From an uncultured Geobacter sp. (GTDB taxonomy: Bacteria; Desulfobacterota; Desulfuromonadia; Geobacterales; DSM-12255), in NCBI GenBank assembly GCA_937860145.1, contig CALMBF010000155.1, forward strand, positions 1 through 64,000: a DNA stretch of 64,000 bases, in the 5' to 3' direction. Under the pieces are notes generated by a model. It saw only the letters and a list, made by a program, of their open reading frames with translations, searched no databases and was not told the origin of the DNA. The translations under genes and the position numbers were made by a program. Positions 38,354 to 59,758 of the stretch are shown in pieces (within the stretch, counting starts at the first letter, position 1; each line of letters starts with the position of its first letter).

Positions 38354-38410
38354 CCCTGGCAGAATATGGCATGCAATGCCAACGTATTCTGCTGGGATGA
38401 GGTAGGTACC

Positions 38411-39259: not shown

Positions 39260-39378
39260 CGAGCGTTGAGTCAATACCAGTGGGGGTAATTTCAAGGCAT
39301 TAGCTGGAATCAAACTGGCATCGACCATCATCTCAGAGCACTGCTGAATACATGTTGGTTTAATCGGAGAAGGACATC

Positions 39379-40677
39379 ATGGGCGATATTGCGATTCGCG
39401 CCGGGAATCTGTCAAAACGGTACAACATTACGATGGGGAAACGTCGTCACGACACTCTGCGTGATCAGATTGCTGACGGACTGAAGTCTCTTTTCCGGCG
39501 CAACCGGCGATCCAGCCTGGGTGAAAATGCATTCTGGGCGTTGAAAGATGTATCTTTTGAGATCAAAGAGGGGGAGGTCGTCGGCATCATCGGGCAGAAC
39601 GGTGCCGGGAAGAGCACCCTGCTGAAAGTCCTTTCCCAGATTGTGGTGCCGACGTACGGCCAGGCCCAGATTTATGGACGGGTTGGCTCCTTGCTTGAAG
39701 TAGGTACCGGCTTCCATCCCGAGCTGACCGGTAGGGAGAATATATTCCTTAATGGTGCCATCATAGGCATGAAGAAGGAGGAAATTCGACGACAGTTCGA
39801 TGCGATTGTCGAATTTGCCGAGGTGGAGAAGTTTCTTGACGTGCCCGTAAAACGTTACTCAAGCGGCATGTATGTGCGCCTTGCCTTTGCCGTGGCCGCC
39901 CATCTCCAGCCGGAAATAATGTTTGTGGACGAAGTCTTGGCGGTGGGTGATGCCGCTTTCCAGAAGAAGTGTCTGGGTAAAATGGGTGATGTGGCAAAAG
40001 GAGGGAGGACTGTCCTCTTCGTAAGTCACAATATGACCGCGGTAAACAGCCTGTGTGACCGGGTGCTCTGGTTGGACCGCGGCACAATCGTCGAAGACGG
40101 GCCTACGACTCCCATAGTGACGAGGTATATGGAAAAATCCCTGAAGGGCATGGATTCGTCCGAGGAATCATGGGATGACATAACCACCGCACCGGGCAAC
40201 GACATCGTGCGGTTCCACGGGGTGCGCGTGCGTCGTCAGGACGGCCGTCTGTCAGACCCCCTGACGATGCAGACGCCGTTTCAGGTAGAAATTGAATGCT
40301 GGAATCTGGTGGACAATACGCAATTGCATGTCACCCTGCACCTCTATACTGCGGAAGGAATAATTGCCTTTACCACAGGGGGACTGCCCGAGCGGCCCAT
40401 GCCGGCGGGGTTGTTCCGGAGTGTCTGCTATGTCCCCGGCGATTTATTGAACAGCGGGCTGCACCGGATAGTGGTACTGATTGTCAAGAATACGAACTCG
40501 GTTATCTACCGCCATGAGAGCGGGGCATCAATCAACATACTGGACTTGAATCATAGGGATTTCGCCTACTTTGGCAGGGAGCCGGGCGTTGTGCAACCTG
40601 TGCTGAATTGGAAAACGGAATATCTGGGCGAAGGCCTGGAAGTCAATACGTTTACGCGCAAACTTCAGTTTGAATGA
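39379..40677 (+). CDS. wzt: ABC-type polysaccharide exporter ATPase (Wzt-like) with carbohydrate-binding tail
   Basis: A 432-residue protein. NBD: Walker A GQNGAGKST near 72-80, signature YSSGMYVRLAF near 157, Walker B IMFVDEVLAVGD near 179, H-loop VSHNM. From about residue 265 a beta-sandwich C-terminal domain follows, as in Wzt proteins that recognise a modified chain terminus before export. A terminal cap such as a methyl or acyl group may therefore be needed, which fits the methyltransferase and acyl-activation genes directly downstream. Confidence 0.93.
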   Translation: MGDIAIRAGNLSKRYNITMGKRRHDTLRDQIADGLKSLFRRNRRSSLGENAFWALKDVSFEIKEGEVVGIIGQNGAGKSTLLKVLSQIVVPTYGQAQIYGRVGSLLEVGTGFHPELTGRENIFLNGAIIGMKKEEIRRQFDAIVEFAEVEKFLDVPVKRYSSGMYVRLAFAVAAHLQPEIMFVDEVLAVGDAAFQKKCLGKMGDVAKGGRTVLFVSHNMTAVNSLCDRVLWLDRGTIVEDGPTTPIVTRYMEKSLKGMDSSEESWDDITTAPGNDIVRFHGVRVRRQDGRLSDPLTMQTPFQVEIECWNLVDNTQLHVTLHLYTAEGIIAFTTGGLPERPMPAGLFRSVCYVPGDLLNSGLHRIVVLIVKNTNSVIYRHESGASINILDLNHRDFAYFGREPGVVQPVLNWKTEYLGEGLEVNTFTRKLQFE

Positions 40678-40714
40678 TTACTGTTATCGTCATCGATCCG
40701 GCGAGGAGTCTGAG

Positions 40715-41401
40715 ATGCATAAAGTTATTCTCTTTGGCAATAGTGTCTTTGCAGAACATATGTACTTCCTTTTGACCCATGATTCGGAATACGAGGTAGT
40801 TGCGTTCACAGTAGACAGCAAATACATAAAGAAAGATAGGTTATTTGATCTGCCAGTATTTCCTTTTGAAAATATACAATCTGTTTTACCGCCGTCTGAA
40901 CATCTCATGATGGTTGCGGTCAGCTTTCAACGGGTCAACAGATTAAGAGAGGAAAAATACACTCAAGCAAAGAACAAAGGATACCATCTTATCAACTACC
41001 TTAGTTCCAAGGCTACGTCTTTTCCGGGTTTGATCGCTGGCGATAATAGCATCATTCTGGAAAATGCCATCATCGGTCCATATGTACAGATCGGTAATGA
41101 TGTATTTGTCGGTTCGGGAGCGATCATCGGTCACCATACCGTAATAAAGGATCACTGTTTCGTTTCCCCCGGCGCTGTCGTTCTGGGTGGTGTTACCGTG
41201 GAGGAGTACTGTCTGATCGGAGCGAACGCGACCGTGAAAGAAGAGGTCACGGTAGCCAGGGAGTGCATTATCGGTAGTGGCGTGTCAATAAACAAGAATA
41301 CTCAGGAAAAAGGAGTCTACTTCAATCCCCCTCCGGAGCTTCTTGCAAGGAGAAGTGATGAATTGAGGAGCTGGCTGACGTGGCCATTAAGGGCGCGTTA
41401 G
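40715..41401 (+). CDS. Sugar O-/N-acyltransferase (NeuD/PglD-like, left-handed beta-helix)
   Basis: The start at 40715 follows GAGGAG at six bases, giving 228 residues. The N-terminal Rossmann-like part (KVILFGNSVFAEHMYFLL) is followed by hexapeptide repeats (NAIIGPYVQIGNDVFVGSG, then GAVVLGGVTVEEYCLIGAN). This two-part form is shared by acetyltransferases acting on nucleotide-linked amino sugars. The donor is probably acetyl-CoA; the DegT aminotransferase at 54.1 kb could supply the amino sugar. Confidence 0.85.
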   Translation: MHKVILFGNSVFAEHMYFLLTHDSEYEVVAFTVDSKYIKKDRLFDLPVFPFENIQSVLPPSEHLMMVAVSFQRVNRLREEKYTQAKNKGYHLINYLSSKATSFPGLIAGDNSIILENAIIGPYVQIGNDVFVGSGAIIGHHTVIKDHCFVSPGAVVLGGVTVEEYCLIGANATVKEEVTVARECIIGSGVSINKNTQEKGVYFNPPPELLARRSDELRSWLTWPLRAR

Positions 41402-41448
41402 GGACAGCGGTGCTGAAGACGAAGAAAATCGGCCACAGGGAGGTTGTG

Positions 41449-42483
41449 ATGCTTCAGGAATTACCCGTATCGGACCGATCGGTCAAGAAAATGCAGATCG
41501 AAGTACTTTCCATCGCAGAGGGTTTTTTCCAGTCGAGTATTTTCTTTGCCTTGTTGCGGTTGAAAATATTTGAACGCATCGATGGAGGCAGTAAATCCCT
41601 CATGGAACTCGCGACGGAACTTGATGTGCGGCCGGACACCCTGGCCAGGTTGTTGAATGCAGGGGTCGTCCTTAAAGTGCTCGAGTCCAAAGATGGTTTC
41701 AACTACAGCATAGCTTCCACGTGTCGAACCGTATTGTCTCCCTCAGCCGGGGAGAATTATCTCGGAGACTGGATACGCAGTCTGGATTATTTTTGCACGC
41801 CACTGTCAAAGCTTGATCAAGCGATTCTTACTTCCGGGCCAACGATCGAACCCTCGACGCATCTTGGCGGCGATAAGGAAAGTACGCGAAGTTTCACCCT
41901 GTCAATGCACGACTATGCAACACTTCGCGGAAAGGAACTGGCCGATTTTCTGAGTACCGACGGGTGCACGTCGCTATTGGACCTTGGGTGTGGTCCGGGG
42001 ACATACGCGTTTCACCTGGGCATGCGTAACCCCGCGCTTGATCTTTACCTTGCGGATCACCCGGTCGTTCTGGAGACCGCAAAGGAAATACAGGCAAGGT
42101 TCAGTTTAAAGAACAAGATTCATTATGTGCCCCTCGATGCCTTGAAGGATGATATCCCCGGTTCATACGACATCATACTCGTCTCCAATATGCTGCATGG
42201 ACTAGGGGAGAGCGCGAGCCGTTCGCTTATCAAGCGGTTATATGCCTCGGTGAACCGCGGCGGATCATTGGTCATCCAGGCCCAGTATTTGCGGGACGAT
42301 CGTCTCGGTGGACGATGGCCTGTCTTCCTAGACCTGATCCAGCTCTGTGTTACGGAAAACGGCAGAAACCACGCTCCGCAGGAAACGAGGGAGTGGCTCG
42401 AAGAAGCCGGGTTCACAAAGATCGAATACTTCCCGATGACCCTTCTCAACACGAACAGTTTTCTCCGTGGCTATAGGGAGTGA
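41449..42483 (+). CDS. SAM-dependent methyltransferase with dimerisation domain
   Basis: The start at 41449 follows GGGAGG, giving 344 residues. The N-terminal winged-helix dimerisation domain (about 20-100) is of the plant/Streptomyces O-methyltransferase type. The Rossmann SAM domain has LLDLGCGPGTYAFHL near 176 and DIILVSNMLHGLGE near 240. These enzymes methylate hydroxyl groups of small aromatic or polyketide-like acids, so the substrate may be the carrier-bound acyl group made by the neighbouring genes rather than a sugar. Confidence 0.85.
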   Translation: MLQELPVSDRSVKKMQIEVLSIAEGFFQSSIFFALLRLKIFERIDGGSKSLMELATELDVRPDTLARLLNAGVVLKVLESKDGFNYSIASTCRTVLSPSAGENYLGDWIRSLDYFCTPLSKLDQAILTSGPTIEPSTHLGGDKESTRSFTLSMHDYATLRGKELADFLSTDGCTSLLDLGCGPGTYAFHLGMRNPALDLYLADHPVVLETAKEIQARFSLKNKIHYVPLDALKDDIPGSYDIILVSNMLHGLGESASRSLIKRLYASVNRGGSLVIQAQYLRDDRLGGRWPVFLDLIQLCVTENGRNHAPQETREWLEEAGFTKIEYFPMTLLNTNSFLRGYRE

Positions 42484-42544
42484 ACGGGACCTGTTTTCAT
42501 GCGAACTCAGTCTTATGACTGATTGATGTGCGGTGAGGTTGACC

Positions 42545-43435
42545 ATGATTGCCCGCATACGGAATATGACCACAGAGGACATAGGACCACTGGGTGAGAT
42601 TCTTTACGAATCGTTCAGTTCCGGTGCATCAAAGCATGGCTATGCACCGAAAATGCAACGCGTGGAGATTGGTAAAGCCTGGGCCTGGGCACTCTTTCAT
42701 TATGGTTCGAATGAGCTGTTGATTGCAGAAGTGGAAAACAGTATTGCCGGAATGTGTTGCCTGAGCCCGAGAGGTGATCTGGGGGGGGTCGGGCCCGTTG
42801 TCGTGAATGCAAAATTCCAGGGATACCGGATCGGGAGCCAGATGATGGCCGCTCTTCTGGAGAGAGCCGGGAACCAGCAGAGTTTACGGTTGATACAGGA
42901 GGCGTTCAACCCCGCATCGTTTTCCTTGTTCTACTCCCACAAGTTCATGCCAGTGACACAGTTGCTGGATTTGGTCCGTGATGGAGAAACTGGGAAGCAG
43001 CTGGAACCGTGCGGTCAGGTAAACGAAGTGCAGCAACATGATCTTCCTGCCGTTTACGACTATGACCGCCCAAGAAGCACGTCTGACCGCCGGAAGGATC
43101 TTGCCTATTATGCCCGGTGGGGCAAGGTCTTTGTCTATCGCGAACAGTCGCACATCCGCGGATTCCTGGCCTGCCTGCCCGGCTCAGGATCGCTGCAACT
43201 CGGTCCCTTGCTCGCCGATGGAGAAGAGGAAGCTGTCCACCTGTTCCGGCATGCTTTAGGCGTCTACGGCAACCGCCCCATGCAGACGCGCGTCATGGCG
43301 AGGGACTATCTTCTTGCCAGGGCACTGATGGGGATGGGTTTTAAGCTGTATTGTCTCAATAACCTGATGGTACGGGGGGCATGGCACCCCGGCCGGTATA
43401 TTGAAGCGTTTGGGATATTTCCCGAAGGTGTGTAA
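42545..43435 (+). CDS. GNAT-family acyltransferase
   Basis: The start at 42545 follows GAGG, giving 296 residues. The N-terminal GNAT fold has the acyl-CoA loop VVNAKFQGYRIGSQMM near 87-102 and AFNPASFSLFYSHKF. The second half resembles a degenerate GNAT repeat. A run of eight G (42781-42788) lies in the codons for LGGVG. It is 24 bp upstream of the carrier-protein gene and may transfer the carrier-bound group. Donor and acceptor are unknown. Confidence 0.75.
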   Translation: MIARIRNMTTEDIGPLGEILYESFSSGASKHGYAPKMQRVEIGKAWAWALFHYGSNELLIAEVENSIAGMCCLSPRGDLGGVGPVVVNAKFQGYRIGSQMMAALLERAGNQQSLRLIQEAFNPASFSLFYSHKFMPVTQLLDLVRDGETGKQLEPCGQVNEVQQHDLPAVYDYDRPRSTSDRRKDLAYYARWGKVFVYREQSHIRGFLACLPGSGSLQLGPLLADGEEEAVHLFRHALGVYGNRPMQTRVMARDYLLARALMGMGFKLYCLNNLMVRGAWHPGRYIEAFGIFPEGV

Positions 43436-43459: not shown

Positions 43460-43702
43460 ATGAGCATTCTGGAAAACATAGAGAAGATCCTGCTTACAGA
43501 AATAGCGGTCGGACTTGCCGATAAAAAAATCGATCCTGAGGCCGATCTGCTGGAGCAAGGCATTATCGATTCACTGGGGCTCATGAAGCTGATTGATTTT
43601 CTTGAGAAGACCTTCAGCATAAAGATAAGCGATGAGGAGATAGTTCCAGAAAATTTCCAATGCCTTAACAGCATGGTTAATCTCGTTCAGCAGCATTTGT
43701 GA
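43460..43702 (+). CDS. Free-standing acyl/peptidyl carrier protein
   Basis: An 80-residue four-helix carrier. The phosphopantetheine Ser38 lies in GIIDSLGLMKLI, in the standard place after an acidic loop. The start is preceded by AAGGGGG. It stands alone, not fused to a synthase, between an acyltransferase gene and an acyl-CoA-dehydrogenase-like gene. A stand-alone adenylation enzyme at 49.5 kb is the probable loading partner. Confidence 0.9.
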   Translation: MSILENIEKILLTEIAVGLADKKIDPEADLLEQGIIDSLGLMKLIDFLEKTFSIKISDEEIVPENFQCLNSMVNLVQQHL

Positions 43703-43884
43703 AACTTATAGGTTGTACGACAATAGCGCATATCCGTGGTGACAGTCGATGGTCACATCGCTGTATGTTCTCGATACCTGAGAAGAGGGGCTATTTAACC
43801 TTTGAAATATTACGTTCTACGTAGTTTAGATCGAATCTTGTCGGGATATTTACACCTATTGAACGGGAAAGACGGGATAAAATC

Positions 43885-45030
43885 ATGGATTTTTCATTTT
43901 CTCAAGATCAAATAACCTTTAAAGAGTCAGCCATCGAATTCGCGGAGAAAGTTCTCAATAAAGGGGCAAAAGACCGGGAGGGGAAATGCGAGTTTAACCG
44001 GGATGGCTGGGAAAAGTGTGCCGAATTTGGGGTGCAGGGCCTTCCAGTCCCGGAAGAGTATGGTGGCCTCGGTTTGGATATCCTGACATGCGTCGCCACC
44101 ATGGAAGGACTCGGCTACGGCTGCAAAGACAGCGGGCTTTTATTTTCTCTCAATTCGCACATCTGGACATGCGAGTCTCCCCTCTTGAAATTCGGCAGCG
44201 AGTATCAAAAGTCTAAATATTTGCCAGGTCTTTGCAATGGGACGCTCATCGGCGGCCATGCCATGACGGAGCCGGATTCGGGGTCAGATGCATTCAGCAT
44301 GAGGTCCAAGGCAGAAAAAAGGGGTGATCGCTACATTATCAACGGGACGAAGATGTTTATCACCAATGCCCCGATAGCGGACATCCTTTTGGTGTTTGCG
44401 GTTACGGACCCCACGAAAGGTTTTGCCGGAATCTCTGCCTTTATCGTTGAAAAAGGCTTCCCGGGTTTTTCGACAGGAAAGCCCCTCGACATGATGGGAT
44501 TGAAGACCTGCCCCCTCGGAGAGGTCGTTTTACAGGATTGCGAGGTCCCGGAAGAGAACAGGCTGGGGAAAGAAGGGGCGGGGGCCGCTATCTTCAATTC
44601 AGAAATGGAATGGGAGAGAAGTTGTTTGTTTGCCACCCATGTCGGGGCCATGTCGAGAGACATCAACGACTGTATCCGCTATGTGAAAGAACGGCACCAG
44701 TTCGAAAAGCCTATCGCGAAATTCCAGGCCATATCCCACAAAATCGCAGACATGCAAGTCAAGCTCGAACTGTCGAGGCTCGTTCTCTACAAAGTCGCCT
44801 GGTTGAAGGCACAGGGTAAACGGGCTCCTCTCGAATCTGCCATGGCCAAGTTGTTCGTCAGTGAAAGTTATGTGCAGAATTGCCTGGAGGCACTGCAGAT
44901 CCATGGTGCCTATGGATATTCGACGGAACTGGATTTTGAAAAAAACGTGAGGGATTCAATAGCAGGAAAGATTTATTCAGGAACGTCGGAAATTCAAAAA
45001 AATATCATTGCGAGTATCCTCGGCCTCTGA
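43885..45030 (+). CDS. Acyl-CoA/acyl-ACP dehydrogenase flavoprotein
   Basis: A 381-residue FAD enzyme of the ACAD family: MTEPDSGSD near 127-135, a FITNAP loop near 158-163, RHQFEKPIAKFQ near 270-281, and the C-terminal GTSEIQKNIIA. Where medium-chain enzymes have the catalytic Glu (Y-E-GT) this protein has Ser365. Instead Glu244 in MEWERS occupies the alternative base position known from isovaleryl- and long-chain-type enzymes. With a carrier protein just upstream and ETF genes nearby, it probably oxidises an acyl or aminoacyl group on the carrier and passes electrons to ETF. Confidence 0.93.
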   Translation: MDFSFSQDQITFKESAIEFAEKVLNKGAKDREGKCEFNRDGWEKCAEFGVQGLPVPEEYGGLGLDILTCVATMEGLGYGCKDSGLLFSLNSHIWTCESPLLKFGSEYQKSKYLPGLCNGTLIGGHAMTEPDSGSDAFSMRSKAEKRGDRYIINGTKMFITNAPIADILLVFAVTDPTKGFAGISAFIVEKGFPGFSTGKPLDMMGLKTCPLGEVVLQDCEVPEENRLGKEGAGAAIFNSEMEWERSCLFATHVGAMSRDINDCIRYVKERHQFEKPIAKFQAISHKIADMQVKLELSRLVLYKVAWLKAQGKRAPLESAMAKLFVSESYVQNCLEALQIHGAYGYSTELDFEKNVRDSIAGKIYSGTSEIQKNIIASILGL

Positions 45031-45137
45031 CCGTTTCTTTTATCTGTCGCACCTTCTCCGGCAGATGGGTGGCGATGCATGACTGACTATTCGCAATATC
45101 TTGGCTGGTGATCGGTTTATGGAGTAAGGAGGCAGGT

Positions 45138-48100
45138 ATGAGCTCTTTTATCTTCACCGGTACAGTTCAGATTCGGCGCAACTACAGATCCCTCTTCCTC
45201 TCACTGGTCATTTTATCCGTAACAATTGCGATAAAACCGATACAGGTCCGGGCTCAGACCCCCGAACCGGTCGTGGCCATTCATGTCTCAGAACTGACCC
45301 AGGCGTTAGAGACACTCCGTGCACAGTCACCCACGCCGACCGGGCCTGGGACGACTGGCTACGAATGGTGGACCACTGCCTGGCATTATCGCGTGATGCC
45401 GGAATCACTGAAAGAGTCGCTTCGCTCAGACGGCACGCCATTTGTCGAAGTAAGTGACGCCGACATTGTGGCCGGACGGCTCCAGTTCACCGATGGCTCT
45501 CCCCGATACCCTATTCTGATCAGTCTGGCCTCCGAAGCGATCGCAGATAACGAGATAGCTCCGCTTCGTGATTATGTTGCTGCCGGCGGAAACCTGTTTG
45601 TCGGTTCATCAGCATTTACGCGCCATCCGGACGGTACAACCCGGGGAGATTTTGCCCTGGCCAACGAACTCGGGCTGCACATGGTCACACCTTCTCTTCA
45701 GAATTGGTACCAGAATTTGTACTTCACCAAAGTCACGGACCACCCCCTGGTACGTAATATCCCCTCAACAAAAATCGCCTGGCGTATGCCTATCAGTTCC
45801 GATGAGATACCTTTGGGTACCTCGCCCAATTACTATATTCACGGCTACCACTGGGTGTTTCAGGTTTCCGCGGACAGCGGCACGACGGTCATTGCAAATG
45901 GTGATTCCGGACCACTGCTTGCGACCAGGCAGTACGGCAACGGGAACCTGGTTTATCACGGTGCGATGCAGCCGCTTGTCGGACACACGATTTATGACCC
46001 GTCACTGTATGCATACCTCATCTATCGACAAGCCATAGAGTGGGCCTTCGAGGCATACAACCTCCCGCTCATCAGGGTCAGTCCTTGGCGCTACGGATAC
46101 AATGCAGCATTCATCGTCCGGCATGACTTTGAGAATAAAGCAGACTTGATTCGATCCATTGAAAGTTCCGCAGCTTACGAAAAGGGATACGGTGTAAGGG
46201 GTGATTATTACTTCTGTACCGGCACGCTTCGAGATGAGATGTGGGACGAAAGCAGCGTGGTAGCCAGCTTGCGACGGGCCGTCATAAATTACGGGGCGAC
46301 AATCGGATCGCACAACGGAGGTTTGAAGAATCCGGTAAATCCGTCTCTGCACATGAGCGATTTTGACTACTGGCACTGGGGACCGGATGAGGTCCTGGAC
46401 ATGATCCCGTCTGGTTATACAAGCGGCAAAGCATATGCCCAGGCATCTGTCAGTGCTTCCTTCCATGATATAGAAGGGTGGTTGGCAGGGGTGGACAACG
46501 GCAGGGCAGGGTGCAACTTGACGGATACCTGCCCCCGCCTCTGGGCCGCTCCTTTTATGAACTCGACGAGGGAAGGTTCCCGGATCATTCTAAGGGACAT
46601 GGGCAGCGCGCTTATAACCGCAGGTGAAGAAAAAGTCGGCCCGTACCCGCATCGTGAGTTGTCGTATGAGAATCCTGTCCAGCGTTTTCCATATATTTCG
46701 GTGCCGACTAGCGACTGGTATGTGGGTAGCGAAGTCCCCGGTGCTCTCGATATGGGGCATACTTCAGATTCGATGCGGGCAGCCGTTGATTTCTATTATA
46801 ACCTGGGCGCCCAGATCAATCTTTACGGGCACCTTGTTTCGAGTGATTCGACCTTGATGGGGCAGTATGTGAAGTACTGCACCACGAAACCTCGCATGTG
46901 GTCGACAAATACGACCGGCATTGCTGACTGGTGGCAGGTGAGATCCGGTACGGTTGTCATGCCTGCTTACAGTGTGACGGACACTACGGTTACTGCCCAG
47001 GCTGCAATCAGTGGGGCCACTGATTCCGACACTGCCATTGACGTGACCTTCCCGAACAGCACAAACCAGATTGTCAACAACCTGCAGGTTTTCATTGATG
47101 GTTCACCGGCTGATCCTGCTGACTACCGCATGATCGGCAATACGGTGAAGGTTCGAGTCGGTGCTGCAGCTTCGAGTGCAAAGGTGCAGTACGCGCTCAA
47201 TAATCCCCTTCCGACAACCATGGCCCTGAGCCCGTCCACTACCACCGCCGGTGGTGCGGCATTTACGCTGACCGTCACCGGCACCGGCTTCGTCACCGGC
47301 TCCGTCGTTCAATGGAACGGTGACAGCCGGGCAACGACCTACGTGTCCTCGACCCAGCTGACGGCGTCGATCCTTGCGGCGGACATAGCAGCGGCAGGTA
47401 CCGTCACGGTGACGGTGGACAACCCCTCGCCGGGTGGGGGCATCTCCAACGGCCAGACCTTTACGGTTACTGTTGGCAATCCCCTTCCGACAACCACGGC
47501 CCTGAGCCCCTCCACTGCCATCGCCGGCGGCGCGGACTTCATGCTGACCGTCACCGGCAGCGGCTTTGTCAACGGCTCCGTCGTACAGTGGGACGGGGTC
47601 AGTCGGACGACGACCTACGTATCCTCGACCCGGCTGACGGCGACAATCCCCGCGACGGATATTGCCGCGGCAGGGATGGCAACTGTGACCGTGTTCAATC
47701 CAACGCCGGGTGGCGGTACCTCTAATATTCAACTCTTCACGATCAATACCAGTGATACCCTGTTTTCGGATGATTTCACGCGATCGCCCGGTATCCCCAA
47801 CCCGCTCTTCCCATGGGTTACATCAATGGGGACATGGACGGTAACGGCAGGGGTAATGAAAGGCTCCGGCAACCAGAACCAGTATTCCTATGCCTATTAT
47901 TCCACGACTCCCCAATGGGCAGACTATACGGTGAAAGGGAGTGTCCAGATCCCGGCCGGGTCTTTCGGAGGTGGCATCGGCGGGCGTGTTGTCCCGGCAA
48001 CAGGTGCCCATTATGGTGCGTGGATCTACCCGACAGGTTCGGCAGGTGGATCGAATGTCTTGAAGTTATGGAAGTTTCGTGGATGGACGGATATCGGCAC

Positions 48101-49436
48101 CGGTGTACCGATGCAGCAGATAAATCTGCCGGTTGTCGGCACGGGCTGGCACACACTGCAGATGACCTTTATGGGGAGCCGTATCCTCGTGTATTACGAC
48201 GGGGAACTGAAGATCGACGTTACCGACAACAACTTTGACTCCCGCGCCCCCTATGTGAATGGCGGCATAAGCGTGGACTGGTGGACGTGGTCCCTGCCAT
48301 ACACGATGACGGTTGACGACATAACAGTGTCGGCCATTAGTTTGCCAACGACGGCAAACCTGAGTCCTTCTTCCGCCTATGCCGGCGGTGCGGATTTTAC
48401 GCTGACCGTCACCGGTAGCGGCTTCGTCAACGGTTCCGTCGTGCAATGGAACGGCGCCAGCCGGCCGACGACCTATGTCTCCGCGACCCAGCTGACGGCG
48501 GCGATCCCGGCGGCGGACATAGCAGGGGCAGGCACTGCCACGGTGACGGTAGTCAATCCCGTGCCGGGGGGAGGTACCTCCAACGGTCAGACCTTCACGA
48601 TCACTGCGGCCGACAACCCCGTGCCGGCTGTCACCTCCCTGAGCCCGTCCACCGCCACCGCCGGCGGTGCGGCCTTTACGCTGGCCGTCACCGGCAGCGG
48701 CTTCGTCAACGGTTCCGCCCTGCAGTGGAACGGCGCCAGCCGGCCGACGACCTATGTCTCCGCGACCCAGCTGACGGCGGAGATCCCGGCGGCGGACATA
48801 GCAGGGGCAGGCACCGCCACGGTGACGGTAGTCAATCCCGTGCCGGGGGGAGGTACCTCCAGCGGCCAGACCTTCACGATCACTGCGGCCGATAATCCCG
48901 TGCCGGCAGTCACCTCCCTGAGCCCAGCCACCGCCACCGCCGACGGCGCGGCCTTTACGCTGGCCGTCACCGGCAGCGGCTTCGTCAACGGTTCCGTCGT
49001 GCAGTGGAACGGCGCCAGTCGGCCGACGACCTATGTCTCCGCGACCCAGCTGACGGCAGCGATCCCGGCGGCGGACATAGCAGCGGCAGGCACTGCAACG
49101 GTGACGGTGGTCAATCCAGTGCCGGGGGGCGGTACCTCGAATTCCCATGTCTTTACGATCACCAATCCCGTACCGACAACGACGAGTCTGACCCCTTCGT
49201 CCAAGCCAGCTGGAAGTAAGGCGTTCAACTTGACCGTGTATGGAACTGGTTTCATCCCGGGATCGGTCGTGCGGTGGAACGGCGCGAACCGCACGACAAC
49301 ATATATTTCCCCAACACAGCTGAAAACAAGGATCTACGCTTCAGACGTCGCGGTGTCAGGGACAGCCCAGGTGACGGTATTCACTCCTGCGCCGGGTGGT
49401 GGCATCTCCAATGCGCGCATCTTCACGATTCAATAG
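45138..49436 (+). CDS. Large exported multidomain protein: deacetylase-like domain, IPT repeats and LamG-like domain
   Basis: The start at 45138 follows AAGGAGG; 1432 residues with a signal peptide ([16 protein letters not shown], then VRAQ). Residues about 35-290 resemble a glutamine-amidotransferase-like fold ([10 protein letters not shown]). About 300-600 resemble a NodB-type deacetylase with altered motifs ([27 protein letters not shown]). Two IPT/TIG-like beta repeats follow (687-870), then a concanavalin/LamG-like domain (about 874-1065), then four more IPT repeats to the end. No PEP-CTERM or other anchor is present at the C-terminus. It is probably secreted and acts on or binds the polysaccharide. 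Confidence 0.8.
47197..49433 (+). repeat. Six IPT-type coding repeats, three nearly identical at 279 bp
   Basis: Repeat starts judged by the LSPS motif lie at 47226, 47502, 48360, 48639, 48918 and 49188. Copies three to five are spaced exactly 279 bp (93 residues) and are almost identical at DNA level, which points to recent duplication or ongoing homogenisation. The first and last copies are more diverged. A LamG-like domain separates copies two and three. Confidence 0.85.
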
Positions 49437-49451
49437 GTAAGGATAATCTTT

Positions 49452-51053
49452 ATGGGGTACTTACTGCATCAATTAGTGTCTGAAAGCGCTGCCAGATATC
49501 CTGAAAAAGAAGCAATAGCGTTTCAGGATGAAACGATGACCTATGCAGAATTGGAACGGGAAAGCAATAAATTGTCCCACTCCCTTTTACGCATAGGCGT
49601 CGTACGAGGCGAGCGGGTCGGTATTCATCTGCACAGGTCCATCTCTTCGATCGTAGGTGCCTTGGGGATATTGAAAGCAGGAGCAACCTATGTGCCCATA
49701 GATCCCCTCTGCCCCCCACACCGTCTGGGCTACATCGTCAACAAATGTGGAACCAGAGTCCTGATCACTTCCCACGAAAAGCTGCCAAATATCGAACAAG
49801 GGTTTTCAGCAGGCTCTCCCCTGAAGACCATTGTCGTGATGAATGGCCTTGATGCGGCCCCCGGTTCGTTCGTATCCACGGAAATAATCGACTGGAAAAA
49901 GCTTCGAGAAACCGCGAGAGAAGATGCTCCGCACGTCAATGCGATAGATGCGGACTTGGCGTATATCCTGTTTACCTCTGGTTCAACCGGAAATCCGAAA
50001 GGGGTGATGCTATCCCATCTGAATTCTCTGACGTTTGTAAACTCTGCCCATGACTTTTTCCAGATAACGGCAGCTGACAGATTTTCAAATATCTGTCCCT
50101 TGCATTTCGATATGTCGGTTTTCGACCTGTTCGTTGCTTTCAAGGCTGGTGCCACCGTGGTCGTTATCCCTGAGGTCTCAGCAAAGTTTCCTGTGAAGCT
50201 GGCGGAATCAATAGAAACGAACAAGATCACCGTCTGGAACTCGGTCCCCTCCGCACTCTCTCTCTTGGCAACGTATAAGAATCTGCACCATCATGATCTA
50301 TCGAGCCTGAGGTTGATCCTTTTTGCCGGTGAAATGTTCCCTCTCAAATATCTCCGACGTCTACAAGAGATTATCCCCAGGTCAAGGTATTGCAACATGT
50401 ATGGTCAAACGGAAGCCAATTCATCGACATCTTATTGGGTCGATCATCTTCCTCCTGAAGCCAGAGGGTCCCTACCCATCGGCCGGCCATTACCAAATTT
50501 CGATGTTTTCGCCCTTGATGAAAGCGGGAGAGAGGTTACCGAACCTGGGCGAGAAGGTGAACTCTATGTGCGGTCATTAACCGTTGCCGCAGGCTATTGG
50601 GGGGAACCGGAAAAAACGGAAAATGCCTTTGTGGGGAATCCTCTGCGGCCTGACCTGAATGAAAAGGTATACAGGACCGGCGACCTGGTGCATCTCGATG
50701 CCGAGGGCAACTATGTCTTTGTTGGTCGAAAAGACCACATGATAAAGAGCCGGGGATACAGAATAGAAATCGGTGAAATTGAAACAGTCCTGTGTGATCA
50801 CCCCAAAGTAAAGAATGCCGTTGTTATCCCCGTCCCGGACGAACTCATCGGTAACAGGATCGTCGCGGTTGTAGAGTTGTCGGAATCTGGTATGATTGAT
50901 AATGAAGATATTCTAAGATACTGCGCAAGCAAACTCCCGCGCTACATGATGCCTGAAGCTGTCAGGTTTTGTGAATCTCTGCCCGTCACATCGTCGGGAA
51001 AGGTCGACAGAAACAAGTTGAGTGACCTCAAGGAGGCATCGTTCAGCGCGTAG
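49452..51053 (+). CDS. Stand-alone adenylation enzyme (amino-acid/acyl-AMP ligase)
   Basis: A 533-residue ANL-family enzyme of NRPS adenylation type with no fused carrier: A3 ILFTSGSTGNPKGV near 172-185, A4 LHFDMSVFDLF near 218-227 with Asp220 in the amino-group-binding place, A5 NMYGQTEANSSTSY, A7 YRTGD, A8 KSRGYRIEIGEIE, and A10 SSGKVDRNKL with Lys517. Alignment by eye to the GrsA pocket gives D-M-F-N-L-A-M-S-S-K. The leading Asp suggests an alpha-amino acid, but I cannot read the substrate. It would charge the carrier protein at 43.5 kb. Exosortase loci often contain a related acyl-CoA ligase. Confidence 0.9.
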   Translation: MGYLLHQLVSESAARYPEKEAIAFQDETMTYAELERESNKLSHSLLRIGVVRGERVGIHLHRSISSIVGALGILKAGATYVPIDPLCPPHRLGYIVNKCGTRVLITSHEKLPNIEQGFSAGSPLKTIVVMNGLDAAPGSFVSTEIIDWKKLRETAREDAPHVNAIDADLAYILFTSGSTGNPKGVMLSHLNSLTFVNSAHDFFQITAADRFSNICPLHFDMSVFDLFVAFKAGATVVVIPEVSAKFPVKLAESIETNKITVWNSVPSALSLLATYKNLHHHDLSSLRLILFAGEMFPLKYLRRLQEIIPRSRYCNMYGQTEANSSTSYWVDHLPPEARGSLPIGRPLPNFDVFALDESGREVTEPGREGELYVRSLTVAAGYWGEPEKTENAFVGNPLRPDLNEKVYRTGDLVHLDAEGNYVFVGRKDHMIKSRGYRIEIGEIETVLCDHPKVKNAVVIPVPDELIGNRIVAVVELSESGMIDNEDILRYCASKLPRYMMPEAVRFCESLPVTSSGKVDRNKLSDLKEASFSA

Positions 51054-51138
51054 CATCTGTGGCGTTGCAACATTTTTTGTCAGGATTTGACTTGGCTCGC
51101 GTGAACCGATTTTGGCTGGTACAAAGGAGGTCGAGACC

Positions 51139-52293
51139 GTGCAAAAGCTTATCAAGAACAACTGGCGCCGTGAATCAGGAGAACAATTAGAAATAGCTAC
51201 GATATTGAGCCACGATATTCATCCCGAAGGATTGGACGTCGATCGGCTTCGATTCACCGGTGCGGGGTGTCTTGTCCTTAAAACGGGCGTTGGCCATATA
51301 ATCAGCGTTATACGCGGGAGTGGAAGACTTCACGTGGCCGGCGATGGGAGAGTGCCCTTTTTTCTTGAGGGTGGAGTACATCTGTATCTCCCGCCCGGCA
51401 TCGATGGTGCGATTGAAGCAGATCCCGGAACCGAATTTGTTCGGGTATCGAGTGTGTCGGATGCGCAGGCACGAGGCAAACGGATGTTGCTGCGCAACGA
51501 TGAATTCATTGCCGCATGTGCTTCCGGATCGCAAACCCTCAGGTGGGCATTTACTCCCCAGTACCTGAGTCGTCGGATCTTCTTGCATCATGACCAGGTG
51601 CTTCTGTCGAAATCCGGTAATCCTGTTTCCTGGTTCCGGACGACAATGTTCGATGTCGCCGGACTCCCGCCAAATGAAGATGGCGAGCCTGTTTTCAAAA
51701 TGTCCTACAACTCCCGTACTGAATTCAACGTTTGCTACGATGTGGCTGGAATCGCGCGCGTGCGTATGTCCCGGCACCCGTACAAGGAATCAAATCAGCT
51801 TTGGGGGCCATGGTACACCCTTGATGGTGACTCGACCTATCACTTGAACGAGGCCGCCGGATGTGCCGAAGAAGAGTGTGTTGTGGATGAAAAGACCAAT
51901 ATCGCACAATTCTTTCGCAACAAGCATGAAGTGTACATCGCAGACGGTCATGTAACGCTCTTTTGTATGTTTGATCCGGCGTCGACGGGTATTGAGAATC
52001 ACCGGCCTGGTGAGTACAGCGATTATGAACCTCTCCAGAAGTTACTCGGTACTGATTTGTATGAAGCTCACCAGAGAGAGATCGTCAAATTTGATGAAAT
52101 GGTGGACACACTCTCTCTGGCCAAAGCCAGGGGAGATCTGAATGCTTATCATGGGACCCCCATCTGGGATCTTTACTTGCACGGGCGCGCGGCGCAAATG
52201 GCCATAGAATCCAAGATCACACAGGCCCTCGCATCGGAAGGGAAAGGACGCGACAGGGTTCTCGCGAGCTGGATGCAAACCGTAACCGAATGA
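51139..52293 (+). CDS. Cupin-like protein of unknown function
   Basis: The GTG at 51139 lies nine bases after AAAGGAGG and is preferred to an upstream TTG; 384 residues. An N-terminal beta-barrel (about 40-130: GVGHIISVIRGSGRLHVAG, then GGVHLYLPPG) has cupin character. A second, less clear barrel follows, with HRPGEYSDYEPL near 295. No signal peptide. It lies between the adenylation enzyme and etfB, so it likely belongs to the same pathway, perhaps as isomerase, dioxygenase or binding protein. No family is recognised with confidence. Confidence 0.55.
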   Translation: MQKLIKNNWRRESGEQLEIATILSHDIHPEGLDVDRLRFTGAGCLVLKTGVGHIISVIRGSGRLHVAGDGRVPFFLEGGVHLYLPPGIDGAIEADPGTEFVRVSSVSDAQARGKRMLLRNDEFIAACASGSQTLRWAFTPQYLSRRIFLHHDQVLLSKSGNPVSWFRTTMFDVAGLPPNEDGEPVFKMSYNSRTEFNVCYDVAGIARVRMSRHPYKESNQLWGPWYTLDGDSTYHLNEAAGCAEEECVVDEKTNIAQFFRNKHEVYIADGHVTLFCMFDPASTGIENHRPGEYSDYEPLQKLLGTDLYEAHQREIVKFDEMVDTLSLAKARGDLNAYHGTPIWDLYLHGRAAQMAIESKITQALASEGKGRDRVLASWMQTVTE

Positions 52294-52335
52294 ATTTCAT
52301 CCCGGTTTGTATCGCAGCATGAATGGACGAGTCCC

Positions 52336-53112
52336 ATGAAGATCCTGGTTTGTATCAAGCAGGTTCCCGATATGGAGTCCCAATTTATCATCAATTCCCA
52401 AGGGAACTGGTTTGATGAGAACAATCTCTCCTTCCGGATGAACGAGTATGACGAGTACGCGGTGGAACAGGCTGTGCGGCTCAAGGAACAACTTGGCGGA
52501 GATCCCGACATCACCGCACTGTCCATTGGCTCCGGCAGGGTCGTTGATGTTCTCAGGAAGGCATTGGCCTTCGGATGCGACCGTGGAGTGCACATCGTGG
52601 ACCCGGACTCATGCGCTAAGGACCCCTGGCAGATCGCTTCCATGATAGCAGCCTTTGCCCAGACCGAGGGGTTCGATCTGATTTTTACCGGGATGCAGTC
52701 ACAGGATCGGGGCTCGGCCCAGGTGGGTGTCATCGTCGCTGAATTGCTGGGAATATCGTGCGTCACAACGTTGATTGGTTTTGCCTATGACAACGGGGTC
52801 ATTACGGTAAAACGTGAGCTCGAAGGTGGTGTGAAGGGGGTGTTGAAGTTGAAAACACCGGCTCTGGTCACCTGTCAGTTAGGTCTCAATGTTCCGCGTT
52901 ATCCGACGCTTCCAAACATATTGAAGGCTAAGAAAAAACAACTTGTTGCCATCCCGGTTGGCGACATGCCCCACGTTCGGGAACTGACGGCAACGTGCAC
53001 CATCTATCGGCCCCGCAAGAAGGCAGGAGGCCTCATCCTGGAAGGGGACGTGGGAATTGTTGCCGACAGGCTTATGGGTATTCTCAAAGAATGCACCATG
53101 GTCATGAAATAG
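52336..53112 (+). CDS. etfB: Electron transfer flavoprotein beta subunit
   Basis: A 258-residue protein of normal EtfB length: MKILVCIKQVPDMES start, an NEYDEYAVEQAVRLKE helix, and the recognition-loop region LGISCVTTLIGF, ending with PTLPNILKAKKK. It pairs with EtfA, the next gene after 9 bp. It accepts electrons from acyl-CoA-dehydrogenase-type flavoproteins; the one at 43.9 kb is the obvious donor. A dedicated copy inside a polysaccharide locus is unusual. Confidence 0.95.
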   Translation: MKILVCIKQVPDMESQFIINSQGNWFDENNLSFRMNEYDEYAVEQAVRLKEQLGGDPDITALSIGSGRVVDVLRKALAFGCDRGVHIVDPDSCAKDPWQIASMIAAFAQTEGFDLIFTGMQSQDRGSAQVGVIVAELLGISCVTTLIGFAYDNGVITVKRELEGGVKGVLKLKTPALVTCQLGLNVPRYPTLPNILKAKKKQLVAIPVGDMPHVRELTATCTIYRPRKKAGGLILEGDVGIVADRLMGILKECTMVMK

Positions 53113-53121
53113 GACACCAGG

Positions 53122-54066
53122 ATGAAAGCACTACTCGTTTGCGAGTATCGTGAAGGCAAACTCCTTGATTCAAGCTATGAACTGGTCGCATTTGCCGACA
53201 AGTTGGGCGCTGACAATGTGCTGCTCCTTATCGGGAGCATGGCCGAAGTACCAAGGGTAAATAGTACGGTTTACCTGGCCGATGCAGAAATCTACGGGGA
53301 GTACAATCCGGACCTGCACAAAAAAATAGTCCTTGCCGCGGTAGAGCGGGAAAATCCCGACTACATCGTTTTCGGCCACTCCTCCTGGGGGTGGGACCTG
53401 GCCCCGAGGGTAGCCACCGCTCTCAGAGCAGGACAGGTTTCCGAGGTTGTTGACATTGTCGACGGTCAGTTTGTGGCCGGAATCTGTAATGCCAAGCTGA
53501 GAAGGACAGTGACTCCGAAGACAGATACGGTAGTTCTTACTATTCAGAGTGGTGCTTTCAACTTTGACAGCACCCGGCAAGGGACCCCACTTGTGGAACG
53601 GATAGAACTTTCGGAAGTCATTCCGTCACTCGAGTTTATCGGCTATGAGCCGTCAGAAGCGAAATCCGTCGATCTCACCAGGTCTGAGGTAATTGTAAGC
53701 ATCGGGAGAGGTGTAGGGAAGAAGGAAAATGTAGCGGTTATCTCTGCTCTCGCCAGGGCTCTGGGCGGGGAACTAGGGGCAAGCAGACCTGCGGTGGATG
53801 CAGGATGGGTCGAACATTGCCAGCAGATCGGGGCCACAGGCCAGACGGTGTCGCCCAGGCTGTACATTGCCTGTGGGATAAGCGGTGCGATCCAGCACCT
53901 GGTCGGCATGAGGGAATCGGATTTCGTGTTTGCAATCAACAAGGACAGGGACGCGCCCATTGCCGAGGTCGCCGATGTCCTGGTTGTAGCCGATATCATG
54001 CAAATCGTACCGGAGTTAACGGCGAAGTTTCTTAAAACAGAGAATACGTTTCGTCAGGCGGGTTAA
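53122..54066 (+). CDS. etfA: Electron transfer flavoprotein alpha subunit
   Basis: A 314-residue protein. The N-terminal domain is EtfA-like. The FAD-binding C-terminal domain contains LGGELGASRPAVDAGW near 213-228, GQTVSPRLYIACGISGAIQH near 238, and FAINKDRDAPIAEVADV near 272. No ferredoxin domain is fused, so this is the classical rather than a bifurcating iron-sulfur form as far as sequence shows. Confidence 0.96.
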   Translation: MKALLVCEYREGKLLDSSYELVAFADKLGADNVLLLIGSMAEVPRVNSTVYLADAEIYGEYNPDLHKKIVLAAVERENPDYIVFGHSSWGWDLAPRVATALRAGQVSEVVDIVDGQFVAGICNAKLRRTVTPKTDTVVLTIQSGAFNFDSTRQGTPLVERIELSEVIPSLEFIGYEPSEAKSVDLTRSEVIVSIGRGVGKKENVAVISALARALGGELGASRPAVDAGWVEHCQQIGATGQTVSPRLYIACGISGAIQHLVGMRESDFVFAINKDRDAPIAEVADVLVVADIMQIVPELTAKFLKTENTFRQAG

Positions 54067-54148: not shown

Positions 54149-55426
54149 ATGAAACCGAATATTGATGACCTGGCCATATTTGGAGGAATTCCTGCGTTCC
54201 CGGAACCACTTCATGTAGGACGTCCCAATCTGGGGGACCGGGAGAGATTGTTTGAGCGCATCAATGACATGCTGGACAGAAGGTGGCTAAGCAACAACGG
54301 CCCCTATGTGCAGGAATTCGAGCAGCGAATCTCCGATTTCATTGGTGTCAAGCACTGTATTGCCATGTGCAACGGTACCGTTGCACTTGAGATTGCTATC
54401 CGTTCGCTCGAGTTGAAAGGTGAGGTTATCCTCCCTTCCTTCACCTTTGTCGCTACCGCTCACGCCCTTCAATGGCAGGAGATCACCCCGGTTTTCTGCG
54501 ATATAGACCCGAAAACGCACACGATTGACCCATGCCGCATTGCGCAGATGGTCACCCCGCGCACGACCGGGATCATAGGCGTGCATCTCTGGGGCCGTCC
54601 ATGCGATATCGAGTCATTGGAAGAGATTGCTGCCAACCGTCACCTGAAACTGCTGTTTGATGCAGCCCACGGATTCGGCTGTTCCTACAAGGGCAGAATG
54701 CTCGGCAGCTTCGGAAATGCGGAGGTCTTCAGTTTCCATCCGACTAAATTCTTCAATACCTGCGAGGGAGGGGCAATCGCGACAAATGACGATGCTCTAG
54801 CCGGCAAGATACGCCTCATGAAGAACTTCGGTTTCTCGGGATATGACAACGTCATCTACATCGGGACAAATGGCAAGATGAACGAGCTGTCTGCGCTGAT
54901 GGGGTTGACCAATCTCGAAAGTCTGGATGCTTTTGTGGCGGCAAATCATGAAAATTACAAGACGTACCAGCGGGAACTCGCTGGACTGAACGGTGTTAGC
55001 CTCATCAAATACGACCAGAACGAGAAGTGCAACTATCAGTATATCCTCCTCGAAATTGACGAAACCGATACACAGGTGACGAGGGATCAGATAATCGACA
55101 TTCTCCGTGCTGAAAATGTACTTGCCCGGCGCTACTTCTTCCCGGGGTGTCACAGGATGGAACCGTATCGGTCCTTCTTTCCCAATGCGGGTCTGATGTT
55201 GTCAGAAACCGAAAGACTCGTGAAACGTGTCCTGTCTCTGCCTACCGGCACTGCTGTTGGGCCGGATGAGATACATAAAATCTGCAAAATCATACAGATA
55301 GTGCTCGCACATGGATCTGAGGCAAGAGAAAGGTTATCTGGGAGTGTTGTCAACAACGTTGTGAAACCTGCAACAATTGATCGGAAACCAAGAGAACAAA
55401 AACTGATGGCACCTGTCAATTGCTGA
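54149..55426 (+). CDS. DegT/DnrJ/EryC1/StrS-type sugar aminotransferase
   Basis: A 425-residue PLP enzyme. GTVALEIAIRSL near 75-86, ILPSFTFVATAHAL near 96, DAAHGFGCSYKG near 172, and the Schiff-base Lys in VFSFHPTKFFNTCEGG near 199. GGAGG-type ribosome binding site (GGAGGTATGAG). It makes an amino sugar on a nucleotide carrier, and the acyltransferase at 40.7 kb would act next. About 35 extra residues at the C-terminus look unstructured. Confidence 0.92.
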   Translation: MKPNIDDLAIFGGIPAFPEPLHVGRPNLGDRERLFERINDMLDRRWLSNNGPYVQEFEQRISDFIGVKHCIAMCNGTVALEIAIRSLELKGEVILPSFTFVATAHALQWQEITPVFCDIDPKTHTIDPCRIAQMVTPRTTGIIGVHLWGRPCDIESLEEIAANRHLKLLFDAAHGFGCSYKGRMLGSFGNAEVFSFHPTKFFNTCEGGAIATNDDALAGKIRLMKNFGFSGYDNVIYIGTNGKMNELSALMGLTNLESLDAFVAANHENYKTYQRELAGLNGVSLIKYDQNEKCNYQYILLEIDETDTQVTRDQIIDILRAENVLARRYFFPGCHRMEPYRSFFPNAGLMLSETERLVKRVLSLPTGTAVGPDEIHKICKIIQIVLAHGSEARERLSGSVVNNVVKPATIDRKPREQKLMAPVNC

Positions 55427-56424: not shown

Positions 56425-57441
56425 ATGAAAAAAGTCTACATACTAATTCTCAATTGGAACGGTTTGAATGATACTCTCGAATGTCTTGAGTCGGTCTATA
56501 GGCTTGGCTATCCACATTTCGAAGTCGTTGTTGTGGACAACAGTTCTTTAGATAATTCTGTTGAGATAATCTCCCAGAGGTTCCCGAATGTCAAATTGAT
56601 TGAAAACACCACGAACATGGGATTTGCCGGAGGAAACAATATCGCGATGAAATATGCCGTAACAGCTGGAGCTGATTATGTGTGGCTATTAAATAACGAT
56701 ACGGTTGTTGAGCCTGATTCTCTCACCAGATTGGTAAACGAGGCAGAACAGTCTCCTGAAGTCGGAATGGTGAGCCCTGTTGTTCATTATTATGACAGCC
56801 CTGAAAAGATCGAATTTATGGGGGCTTATGTTGACTTTCATAATTTCAGTAATACTCCTGTGATGGATGCACAGGTGCTGGAAGACCCGTATGTACAACG
56901 CAATCTCATATTGTGGGGGACGGCACTTCTCATAAAGAGAGAAGTAATTGAAACCATAGGTTTTCTTTCCGAAAAGTATTTCGCCTATGTTGAAGATTGC
57001 GATTATTCATTCCGGGTATTGAGGGCCAATTACCGATCAAGAGTGAGACTTGATGCTCGAATCCTCCACAAGGGAGCACGAACTTCCGGCAAACATTCGC
57101 CAACTCATGTCTTCCTGGGAACTCGTAATTTGTACTTCCTGTGGAGGGATAATACTCAAGGTTTCAGAAGGATGGTCGTGCCCTGCTATTACATCGGTAT
57201 GGTAATCAATTATGCAAAGTGCCTGTCTGACGAAGGTAATGTAAAGGGCTTTGATGCTTGCATCAACGGATTCTGGGCCGCTATCCGCGGTAAAGGAGGG
57301 GGGTATGATCCCAGGATTCTCATGCCCTCATGGCTAAAAATAGTTTTTCGTTTTTTTGTGTCCTGGCATCCTTATTTTTGGGTACGTCTATTGAGGTGTG
57401 ATGTCATCGGGATTGTTCGGGCTGCTTTCGCTAAGGCCTAG
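56425..57441 (+). CDS. Glycosyltransferase family 2 (rhamnosyltransferase-like)
   Basis: A 338-residue protein. ILILNWNGLNDTLECLES start, VVVDNSSLDNSVE near 36, GFAGGNNIAMKYA near 69, LLNNDTVVEPD near 91 as the metal motif, and FAYVEDCDYSFRVLR near 187. It has a C-terminal amphipathic or membrane-associated part. It adds a sugar to the growing lipid-linked chain in the cytoplasm. No Shine-Dalgarno sequence is evident, so it may depend on coupling with the preceding gene. Confidence 0.92.
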   Translation: MKKVYILILNWNGLNDTLECLESVYRLGYPHFEVVVVDNSSLDNSVEIISQRFPNVKLIENTTNMGFAGGNNIAMKYAVTAGADYVWLLNNDTVVEPDSLTRLVNEAEQSPEVGMVSPVVHYYDSPEKIEFMGAYVDFHNFSNTPVMDAQVLEDPYVQRNLILWGTALLIKREVIETIGFLSEKYFAYVEDCDYSFRVLRANYRSRVRLDARILHKGARTSGKHSPTHVFLGTRNLYFLWRDNTQGFRRMVVPCYYIGMVINYAKCLSDEGNVKGFDACINGFWAAIRGKGGGYDPRILMPSWLKIVFRFFVSWHPYFWVRLLRCDVIGIVRAAFAKA

Positions 57442-57502
57442 ATCAACTTCTCATGTTCGCCGCACCGTTTTATTGCTTCGACGTTGTAACCTGTTACCGG
57501 TG

Positions 57503-58537: not shown

Positions 58538-58558
58538 CGGCATTGCCGGGGAACCACC

Positions 58559-59755: not shown

Positions 59756-59758
59756 GAC

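Follow-up and report, generated by a model that had tools for sequence, protein, structure and literature searches.

Why should genes resembling those that oxidize amino acids on carrier proteins lie within an exopolysaccharide locus? The question is raised by a 64,000-nucleotide stretch of DNA from an uncultured Geobacter sp. of the class Desulfuromonadia (contig CALMBF010000155.1, positions 1 to 64,000; hereafter the window), in which a free carrier protein, a flavoprotein of the acyl-CoA dehydrogenase (ACAD) type, an adenylating ligase, a protein called here X, and both subunits of an electron-transfer flavoprotein (ETF) are encoded within 10.6 kb of one strand. An earlier note on this DNA had listed these genes, and a check of the window's open reading frames (ORFs) bore the list out: the named genes are intact ORFs, all on the + strand and at the positions that the note gave, and PP-binding, Acyl-CoA_dh, AMP-binding with AMP-binding_C, ETF, and ETF_alpha each score above their Pfam cut-offs. 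Judging from sequence comparisons, we consider an anaerobic, glycan-associated version of carrier-bound amino-acid oxidation to be the best explanation of the cassette, with a confidence somewhat above even. Its genes are as follows.

43460..43702, + strand: stand-alone acyl/peptidyl carrier protein (ACP; PP-binding 34 bits, phosphopantetheine Ser38)
43885..45030, + strand: ACAD flavoprotein of the prolyl-carrier dehydrogenase clade (PigA model, solved-structure matches, tree)
49452..51053, + strand: stand-alone aminoacyl-adenylating ligase, pocket DMFNLAMSSK (AA-adenyl-dom 381.7 bits, cut-off 317.4)
51112..52293, + strand: protein X, predicted bicupin with an ectoine-synthase-like second cupin (fold search, Pfam, hhalign)
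52336..53112, + strand: EtfB (ETF 135 bits, tree)
53122..54066, + strand: EtfA (ETF_alpha 122 bits, tree)

The ACAD scores 468.6 bits against the PigA model (curated cut-off 500) and 423.5 bits against RedW, whereas the second-best ACAD of the same genome reaches 245 bits against the PigA model. Among solved structures its top four matches are AnaB, Bmp3, and two PigA sequences, with identities of 50, 42, and 43% to AnaB, Bmp3, and PigA, respectively, and of 35–40% to general ACADs. In a tree of 37 rows with three general ACADs as outgroup, the window ACAD and all three solved prolyl-carrier dehydrogenases form one clade (100/100). Because AnaB, PigA, and Bmp3 sit on different branches within this clade, a carrier-bound, proline-like substrate is the natural inference for the window enzyme as well. 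Glu244 and Ser365 align between the window ACAD and AnaB, Bmp3, and PigA and are invariant in seven relatives; Ser365 occupies the position where general ACADs carry their Glu base, and the Glu244 position is that of the catalytic base in AnaB and Bmp3, for which the thiotemplated logic and the essential Glu have been described (PMC10849742). The carrier protein stands alone, as do those of the PltE/PigA system, its Ser38 sits in a DSL motif, and its solved matches include BlmI-, PigG-, and PltL-type carriers.

The ligase passes the amino-acid adenylation model, and its best stand-alone solved match is PltF. When its ten pocket residues were read by hand-mapping of conserved motifs onto those of GrsA, they gave the code DMFNLAMSSK, including Asp235 and Lys517, the residues established in GrsA to bind an amino acid by its amino and carboxyl groups. 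On its model match and pocket the ligase is thus an amino-acid-type adenylating enzyme, and the logic proposed in the earlier note, an adenylation enzyme acting with a free carrier and a prolyl-type ACAD, is supported by the ligase model, the ACAD clade and tree, and the PigG and PltL carrier matches. The example chosen there, proline to pyrrole-2-carboxylate, fared less well. Ligases adjoining prolyl-type ACADs on Brasilonema, Streptomyces clavuligerus, Microvirga, and Methylocystis plasmids have the code DLLYLALVCK or DLFYLALVCK, which we take to be those of proline ligases of the PltF and RedM types. Compared with these, the window pocket differs at positions 278, 330, and 331 (N278/S330/S331 versus Y/V/C), as does every Desulfuromonadia and Chloroflexi cassette ligase read, and these changes would give the pocket more room and polarity. 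Since the pocket lacks the proline-type code, plain proline is a doubtful substrate and a conversion of proline to pyrrole cannot be assumed; the substrate is probably a proline-related amino acid that is somewhat different, more polar, and ring-forming. The ligase also falls short of the exosortase-A-associated ligase model TIGR03098, scoring 383 bits against a cut-off of 592 (one cassette relative scores 341).

Is the cassette a chance assembly in one genome? An ACAD of the window type is present in 45 of 277 genomes of the class, and in 40 neighborhoods of the class that were read for gene content the ACP–ACAD–ligase set is seen again, usually together with a GNAT protein and one of three alternating enzymes: an arginase-family protein (PF00491), an amidohydrolase (PF04909), or X. 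Outside the class, X-type cassettes occur in two Chloroflexi metagenome-assembled genomes. The co-occurrence in other genomes that the earlier note had called for is therefore found. Moreover, pocket type and alternating enzyme match completely in all loci where both could be read: the amidohydrolase loci have Lys278 (16/16), the arginase-family loci Asn278/Ser330/Ser331 (16/16), and the X loci Asn278, Ser330 (Thr once), and Ser331 (10/10), counts that take in some X loci twice and from which kinship among loci has not been removed. This match offers a concrete handle for finding the substrate. The amidohydrolase-type cassettes with the Lys278 pocket are L064, L065, and L088–L102 (16 loci); three of them, L095, L101, and L102, belong to XrtA-type loci that also encode FemAB and a second DegT protein.

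Glycan genes are present in about two thirds of the 40 neighborhoods, and no nonribosomal peptide synthetase (NRPS) or polyketide synthase (PKS) module recurs with the cassette in the class. ACP–ligase–ACAD sets also adjoin exopolysaccharide genes in alphaproteobacterial loci on Microvirga and Pseudohalocynthiibacter plasmids. In the Microvirga plasmid locus (L077, 6054–9146), the set lies within an exopolysaccharide locus and has the proline-type code DLFYLALVCK, making it a clean test case for pyrrole-type polymer decoration. A constant link to exosortases was considered and rejected, as many cassettes lie in other glycan loci or stand alone. The lone cassettes, away from glycan genes, are seen in Geobacter-like genomes (L058–L062, L104–L106), often with a 218-aa protein that has no Pfam match. 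No paper describing the cassette in glycan loci was found in the open-licence literature, and a search of the same literature for exosortases with a carrier, ACAD, and adenylation enzyme, or for pyrrole-2-carboxyl groups in O-antigens, returned nothing relevant.

Where would the electrons go? The window encodes EtfB and EtfA (52336–54066) together with the ACAD, as would suit an ETF-dependent dehydrogenase, in a genome with twelve ETF-domain matches, or about six pairs. ETF genes also occur in the 20-kb neighborhoods of other cassettes, in 11 of 40 cases where about 3% would be expected (binomial probability 5e-8, kinship among genomes uncorrected). In the ETF tree these form three separate groups, that is, at least three ETF lineages beside cassettes: the window pair with a paralogue from its own genome (64–65% identity); L065, L087, L089, and L094; and L051, L055, L064, L090, L091, and L093. 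Such repeated recruitment from separate lineages argues for function and supports a putative dedicated electron transfer from cassette to ETF. In L051, L090, and L093, a gene for a membrane Fe-S protein that has CCG and Fer4 domains lies between EtfA and ACP, and a similar protein adjoins the window's ETF paralogue (L083); we take these proteins to fit ETF:menaquinone oxidoreductases. The suggestion that a dedicated ETF accepts the electrons thus gains from the recurrence and the separate lineages, but the ETF is not constant: the nearest ACP–ACAD–ligase–X relatives (L010, L012, L013, and L015) have none beside the cassette, so that the ETF was rejected as an invariant part, and the window pair is itself a paralogue. 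These relatives may use a housekeeping ETF pair.

Protein X has no Pfam match at the usual threshold. It is present in seven of 274 genomes of the class, with one further, marginal match. Six of the seven also carry the ACAD; for the other, the only sequence is a 6-kb contig beginning inside the ligase gene. Among seven genomes of the X type or their close kin, none yielded the arginase-family protein (G616 shows neither protein, its contig ending there), whereas five of five others did; no copy was found in the window's genome, and no remnant of its gene in the 182-bp gap between ACP and ACAD. Locus L052 has the arginase-family protein, and its ligase is sister to the ligases of the X-bearing L010, L012, L013, and L015. 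Thus X took the slot of the arginase-family protein, while ligase and ACAD were retained. The window ligase groups with Chloroflexi ligases and the window ACAD with Desulfuromonadia ACADs, differing affinities that make the window locus a mosaic. X was absent from the plasmids searched, and among 400 Chloroflexota genomes only the one already found has it.

The earlier note's description of X as cupin-like was correct and can now be made more precise. AlphaFold gave a poor model of X (pLDDT 50.5), and a fold search with it, used as support only, returned bicupins (OxdC, E 9e-7, TM-score about 0.2). Its second half has a Pfam ectoine synthase match in eight of nine members (best E 1e-4; under the gathering score in the window protein), and hhalign aligned this cupin with ectoine synthase at 60.7% (score 36.7, E 8e-5), compared with <1% and scores of 15–19 for reversed and unrelated controls. 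On these matches X is a predicted bicupin whose second half is ectoine-synthase-like. Across the nine X sequences, the equivalents of Ser23, Arg25, Thr40, Tyr52, His92, and Phe106 of ectoine synthase are invariant; of the iron ligands Glu57, Tyr84, and His92 in that enzyme, whose residue roles have been described (PMC6344544), the first is Asn in X, the second variable, and the third kept. The arginase-family protein of the cassettes is conserved across the class at 65% identity or more, and in it Cys replaces the first metal-ligand Asp (TICSD for SFDID; L058:11375–12361, − strand). Members of the arginase family cleave guanidines and amidines. Ectoine synthase closes cyclic amidines and can cyclize glutamine to a five-membered amidine (PMC6344544), so a shared amidine chemistry of X and the arginase-family protein is a reasonable guess by analogy. 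Elsewhere, an Aliiroseovarius crassostreae plasmid (L108, 6419–12073) encodes an ectoine synthase, two ketosynthases, a prolyl-type ACAD, an AMP ligase, and an ACP, and a plasmid of Streptomyces sp. NBC_01208 (L110, 1–1526) has genes for an AMP-binding protein, a carrier protein, an ectoine synthase, and EctA in a row.

The destination of the product has to be read from the surrounding genes.

21719–23305: sigma-54-dependent regulator with a GAF domain, upstream of the XrtA locus
38366..40677, + strand: Wzm/Wzt-type ABC polysaccharide exporter (membrane part 38366–39259, ATPase with C-terminal domain 39379–40677; Pfam ABC2_membrane, ABC_tran)
40670..41401, + strand: NeuD/PglB/VioB-like hexapeptide acyltransferase (TIGR03570 151.6 bits, cut-off 160.8; Hexapep)
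41380..42483, + strand: S-adenosylmethionine-dependent O-methyltransferase (Methyltransf_2 with dimerisation domain)
42533..43435, + strand: double-GNAT acyltransferase (domain match)
45108..49436, + strand: 1442-aa repeat surface protein with six CoaZ/IPT-like repeats (NF058597 655.9 bits, six copies)
54149..55426, + strand: DesI/VioA-like DegT sugar aminotransferase, 4-amino-4,6-dideoxy sugar (TIGR04427 534.8 bits, under the cut-off of 650)
57398..61229, + strand: FemAB, DegT, XrtA exosortase, and EpsI of the XrtA exopolysaccharide locus (TIGR03019, TIGR03109, TIGR02914 above cut-offs)

The exosortase is XrtA (228 bits, cut-off 208), and EpsI, FemAB, PrsT, the export protein, and the chain-length protein all exceed their model cut-offs, as expected of an XrtA/PEP-CTERM exopolysaccharide locus, whose genes flank the cassette region both upstream and downstream. 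The placement of the cassette in an exosortase locus thus holds for the window, but the association is with glycan loci in general rather than with exosortases, and in Geobacter-like genomes the cassette stands alone. The sigma-54-dependent protein is a possible regulator of the XrtA locus. Domain matches agree with the O-methyltransferase and GNAT genes noted before the ACP and the aminotransferase noted after EtfA. Adjacent genes are spaced by −44 to 182 bp, with most gaps <100 bp and the largest that between ACP and ACAD. The block is nevertheless less tight than the earlier note had it: the genes are there, but a 4.3-kb gene separating ACAD from ligase, that of the repeat surface protein, had been overlooked. 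This protein is probably outside the cassette chemistry; it also adjoins the cassette in L008, L049, L052, and L053.

Several neighbors are kept with the cassette. The conserved block also includes the NeuD/VioB-like acyltransferase and the Wzm/Wzt exporter, the exporter gene order being the same in L010, L012, L013, L015, and L052. O-methyltransferase relatives (76–78% identity) adjoin the ACAD in L049 and L053, the double GNAT is kept beside the ACP in XrtA-type loci, and the DesI-like aminotransferase adjoins X or the ligase in L008, L011, and L052. Taken together, a DesI-like aminotransferase, a NeuD/VioB-like acyltransferase, a methyltransferase, and a Wzm/Wzt exporter hint at a 4-amino-4,6-dideoxy sugar that is N-acylated, and N-acylation of an amino sugar is the most likely fate of the product. 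The NeuD/VioB-like acyltransferase is a candidate for acyl transfer to an amino sugar, and the double GNAT is a candidate acyl transferase too. Both amino acids and derivatives of 5-oxoproline occur as N-acyl substituents on amino sugars of bacteria, viosamine among them (PMC10609480; see also PMC3210612).

In the mechanism that we propose, the ligase would adenylate an α-amino acid, in keeping with its pocket type, and load it onto the phosphopantetheine of the free carrier. The ACAD would then remove α and β hydrogens of the aminoacyl thioester with Glu244 as the base, as its clade and residues suggest. From the gene order, EtfBA rather than oxygen would reoxidize the reduced flavin, and menaquinone would receive the electrons through a membrane Fe-S oxidoreductase like the one whose gene adjoins the paralogous ETF pair. 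X would make or open a C–N bond of substrate or product, probably in a ring or amidine. Finally, the NeuD/VioB-like or GNAT acyltransferase would transfer the acyl group to an amino sugar, for example the product of the DesI-like aminotransferase, and the acylated sugar would be built into the exported polysaccharide.

One alternative, the earlier note's version, is that the ligase loads L-proline and that a pyrrole-2-carboxyl group made on the carrier, as in pyoluteorin and prodigiosin, caps the polysaccharide. The ACAD clade shared with AnaB, PigA, and Bmp3, the PltF match, and the code of the Microvirga cassette favor it, but the pockets of the window and of all Desulfuromonadia and Chloroflexi cassettes read differ at 278, 330, and 331, and X, the arginase-family protein, and the amidohydrolase have no counterpart in known proline pathways; we regard it as unlikely. 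Another possibility is that X or the arginase-family protein forms (or opens) a cyclic amidine, starting from an amino acid such as glutamine or from a diamino acid; the ring would then be loaded by the ligase and desaturated by the ACAD, and cassettes with the amidohydrolase would handle a lactam such as 5-oxoproline. Here the polar pocket, the ectoine synthase match of the second cupin with its retained residues, the five-membered amidine formed from glutamine, the ectoine synthase genes beside ligase–carrier(–ACAD) clusters in L108 and L110, and the 5-oxoproline groups of O-antigens speak in favor, whereas the Glu57 and Tyr84 ligands are not conserved in X, the arginase-family protein carries Cys for one metal-ligand Asp, and X has no direct link to the ligase substrate. 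This too is a tentative proposal. We attach similarly low confidence to a broader reading, in which the window cassette belongs to an undescribed family whose members build proline-like heterocyclic acyl groups on a carrier (cyclic amidines, for instance, or derivatives of 5-oxoproline) and use them to N-acylate the amino sugars of surface glycans. The ring would be handled by whichever of three interchangeable enzymes, unrelated to one another, goes with the ligase pocket (the ectoine-synthase-like bicupin, the arginase-family protein, or the amidohydrolase), and in anaerobes ETF would take the role of oxygen.

The acceptor is also at issue. Geobacter-like cassettes without recognized glycan genes within about 10 kb imply that it need not be a sugar, and the characterized relatives yield natural products (PMC10849742). 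The cassette might then make a small molecule, a secondary metabolite, and merely be located in a polysaccharide locus, leaving the polymer undecorated; the glycan genes in roughly two thirds of the 40 neighborhoods and in the loci of other phyla, and the lack of a recurring NRPS or PKS module in the class, make this improbable. Far less probable still is that ordinary fatty-acyl-CoA oxidation genes (ligase, ACAD, ETF) were caught in the locus. An ETF adjoining an ACAD is common in β-oxidation and the window ETF is paralogous to such a pair, but the carrier protein, the amino-acid pocket, the Glu244/Ser365 arrangement, and the ACAD clade speak against this explanation, which was rejected. Against glycan-associated, anaerobic amino-acid oxidation itself count, besides the lone cassettes, the outgroup of only three rows in the ACAD tree, the departure of the pocket from the proline-type code, the lack of ETF beside the nearest X-type relatives, and the altered iron ligands of X.

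Carrier-bound proline oxidation has so far been described from natural-product pathways, and its flavoenzymes have been called oxidases. The present analysis places the same enzyme logic across a class of mostly anaerobic bacteria, in surface-polysaccharide loci, repeatedly beside ETF, and with systematically altered pockets. If anaerobic, glycan-associated oxidation is correct, then type II NRPS chemistry is joined to glycan decoration and new amino-acid-derived polysaccharide groups are predicted, there is an oxygen-free route for carrier-bound amino-acid oxidation, and the origin of heterocyclic N-acyl groups of O-antigens becomes directly testable. If the cassettes do form a family making heterocyclic acyl groups, this would be a biosynthetic route to the 5-oxoproline-type groups known from O-antigens.

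Among known systems, the cassette most resembles thiotemplated proline oxidation (PltF–PltL–PltE, PigI–PigG–PigA, RedM–RedO–RedW, AnaC–AnaD–AnaB, Bmp1/3/4), sharing a stand-alone amino-acid ligase, a free carrier, an ACAD of the same clade, and the same catalytic Glu; it differs in its N278/S330/S331 pocket in place of Y/V/C, its ETF genes, X, and its setting in a glycan locus instead of a natural-product cluster. With the XrtA/PEP-CTERM exopolysaccharide loci that encode a TIGR03098 ligase it has the type of locus in common, but its ligase falls below the cut-off of that family and has a prolyl-type ACAD, ETF, and X as its partners. Most of the ectoine synthase (EctC) domain is covered by the alignment with the second cupin of X, in which several substrate-side residues are retained, yet X, unlike EctC, is a predicted bicupin with a helical tail, does not keep the Glu57 and Tyr84 iron ligands, and has no ectA or ectB adjoining. 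In other cassettes the slot of X is filled by a relative of the guanidine/agmatine hydrolases of the arginase superfamily (PF00491; 117 bits to 7esr), which in contrast to these enzymes carries Cys for one metal-ligand Asp. Finally, the DesI/VioA-like aminotransferase and NeuD/VioB-like acyltransferase recall the VioA/VioB-type acylated 4-amino-4,6-dideoxyglucose of O-antigens, except that the acyl donor in the window locus would be a carrier-bound, oxidized aminoacyl group instead of acetyl-CoA.

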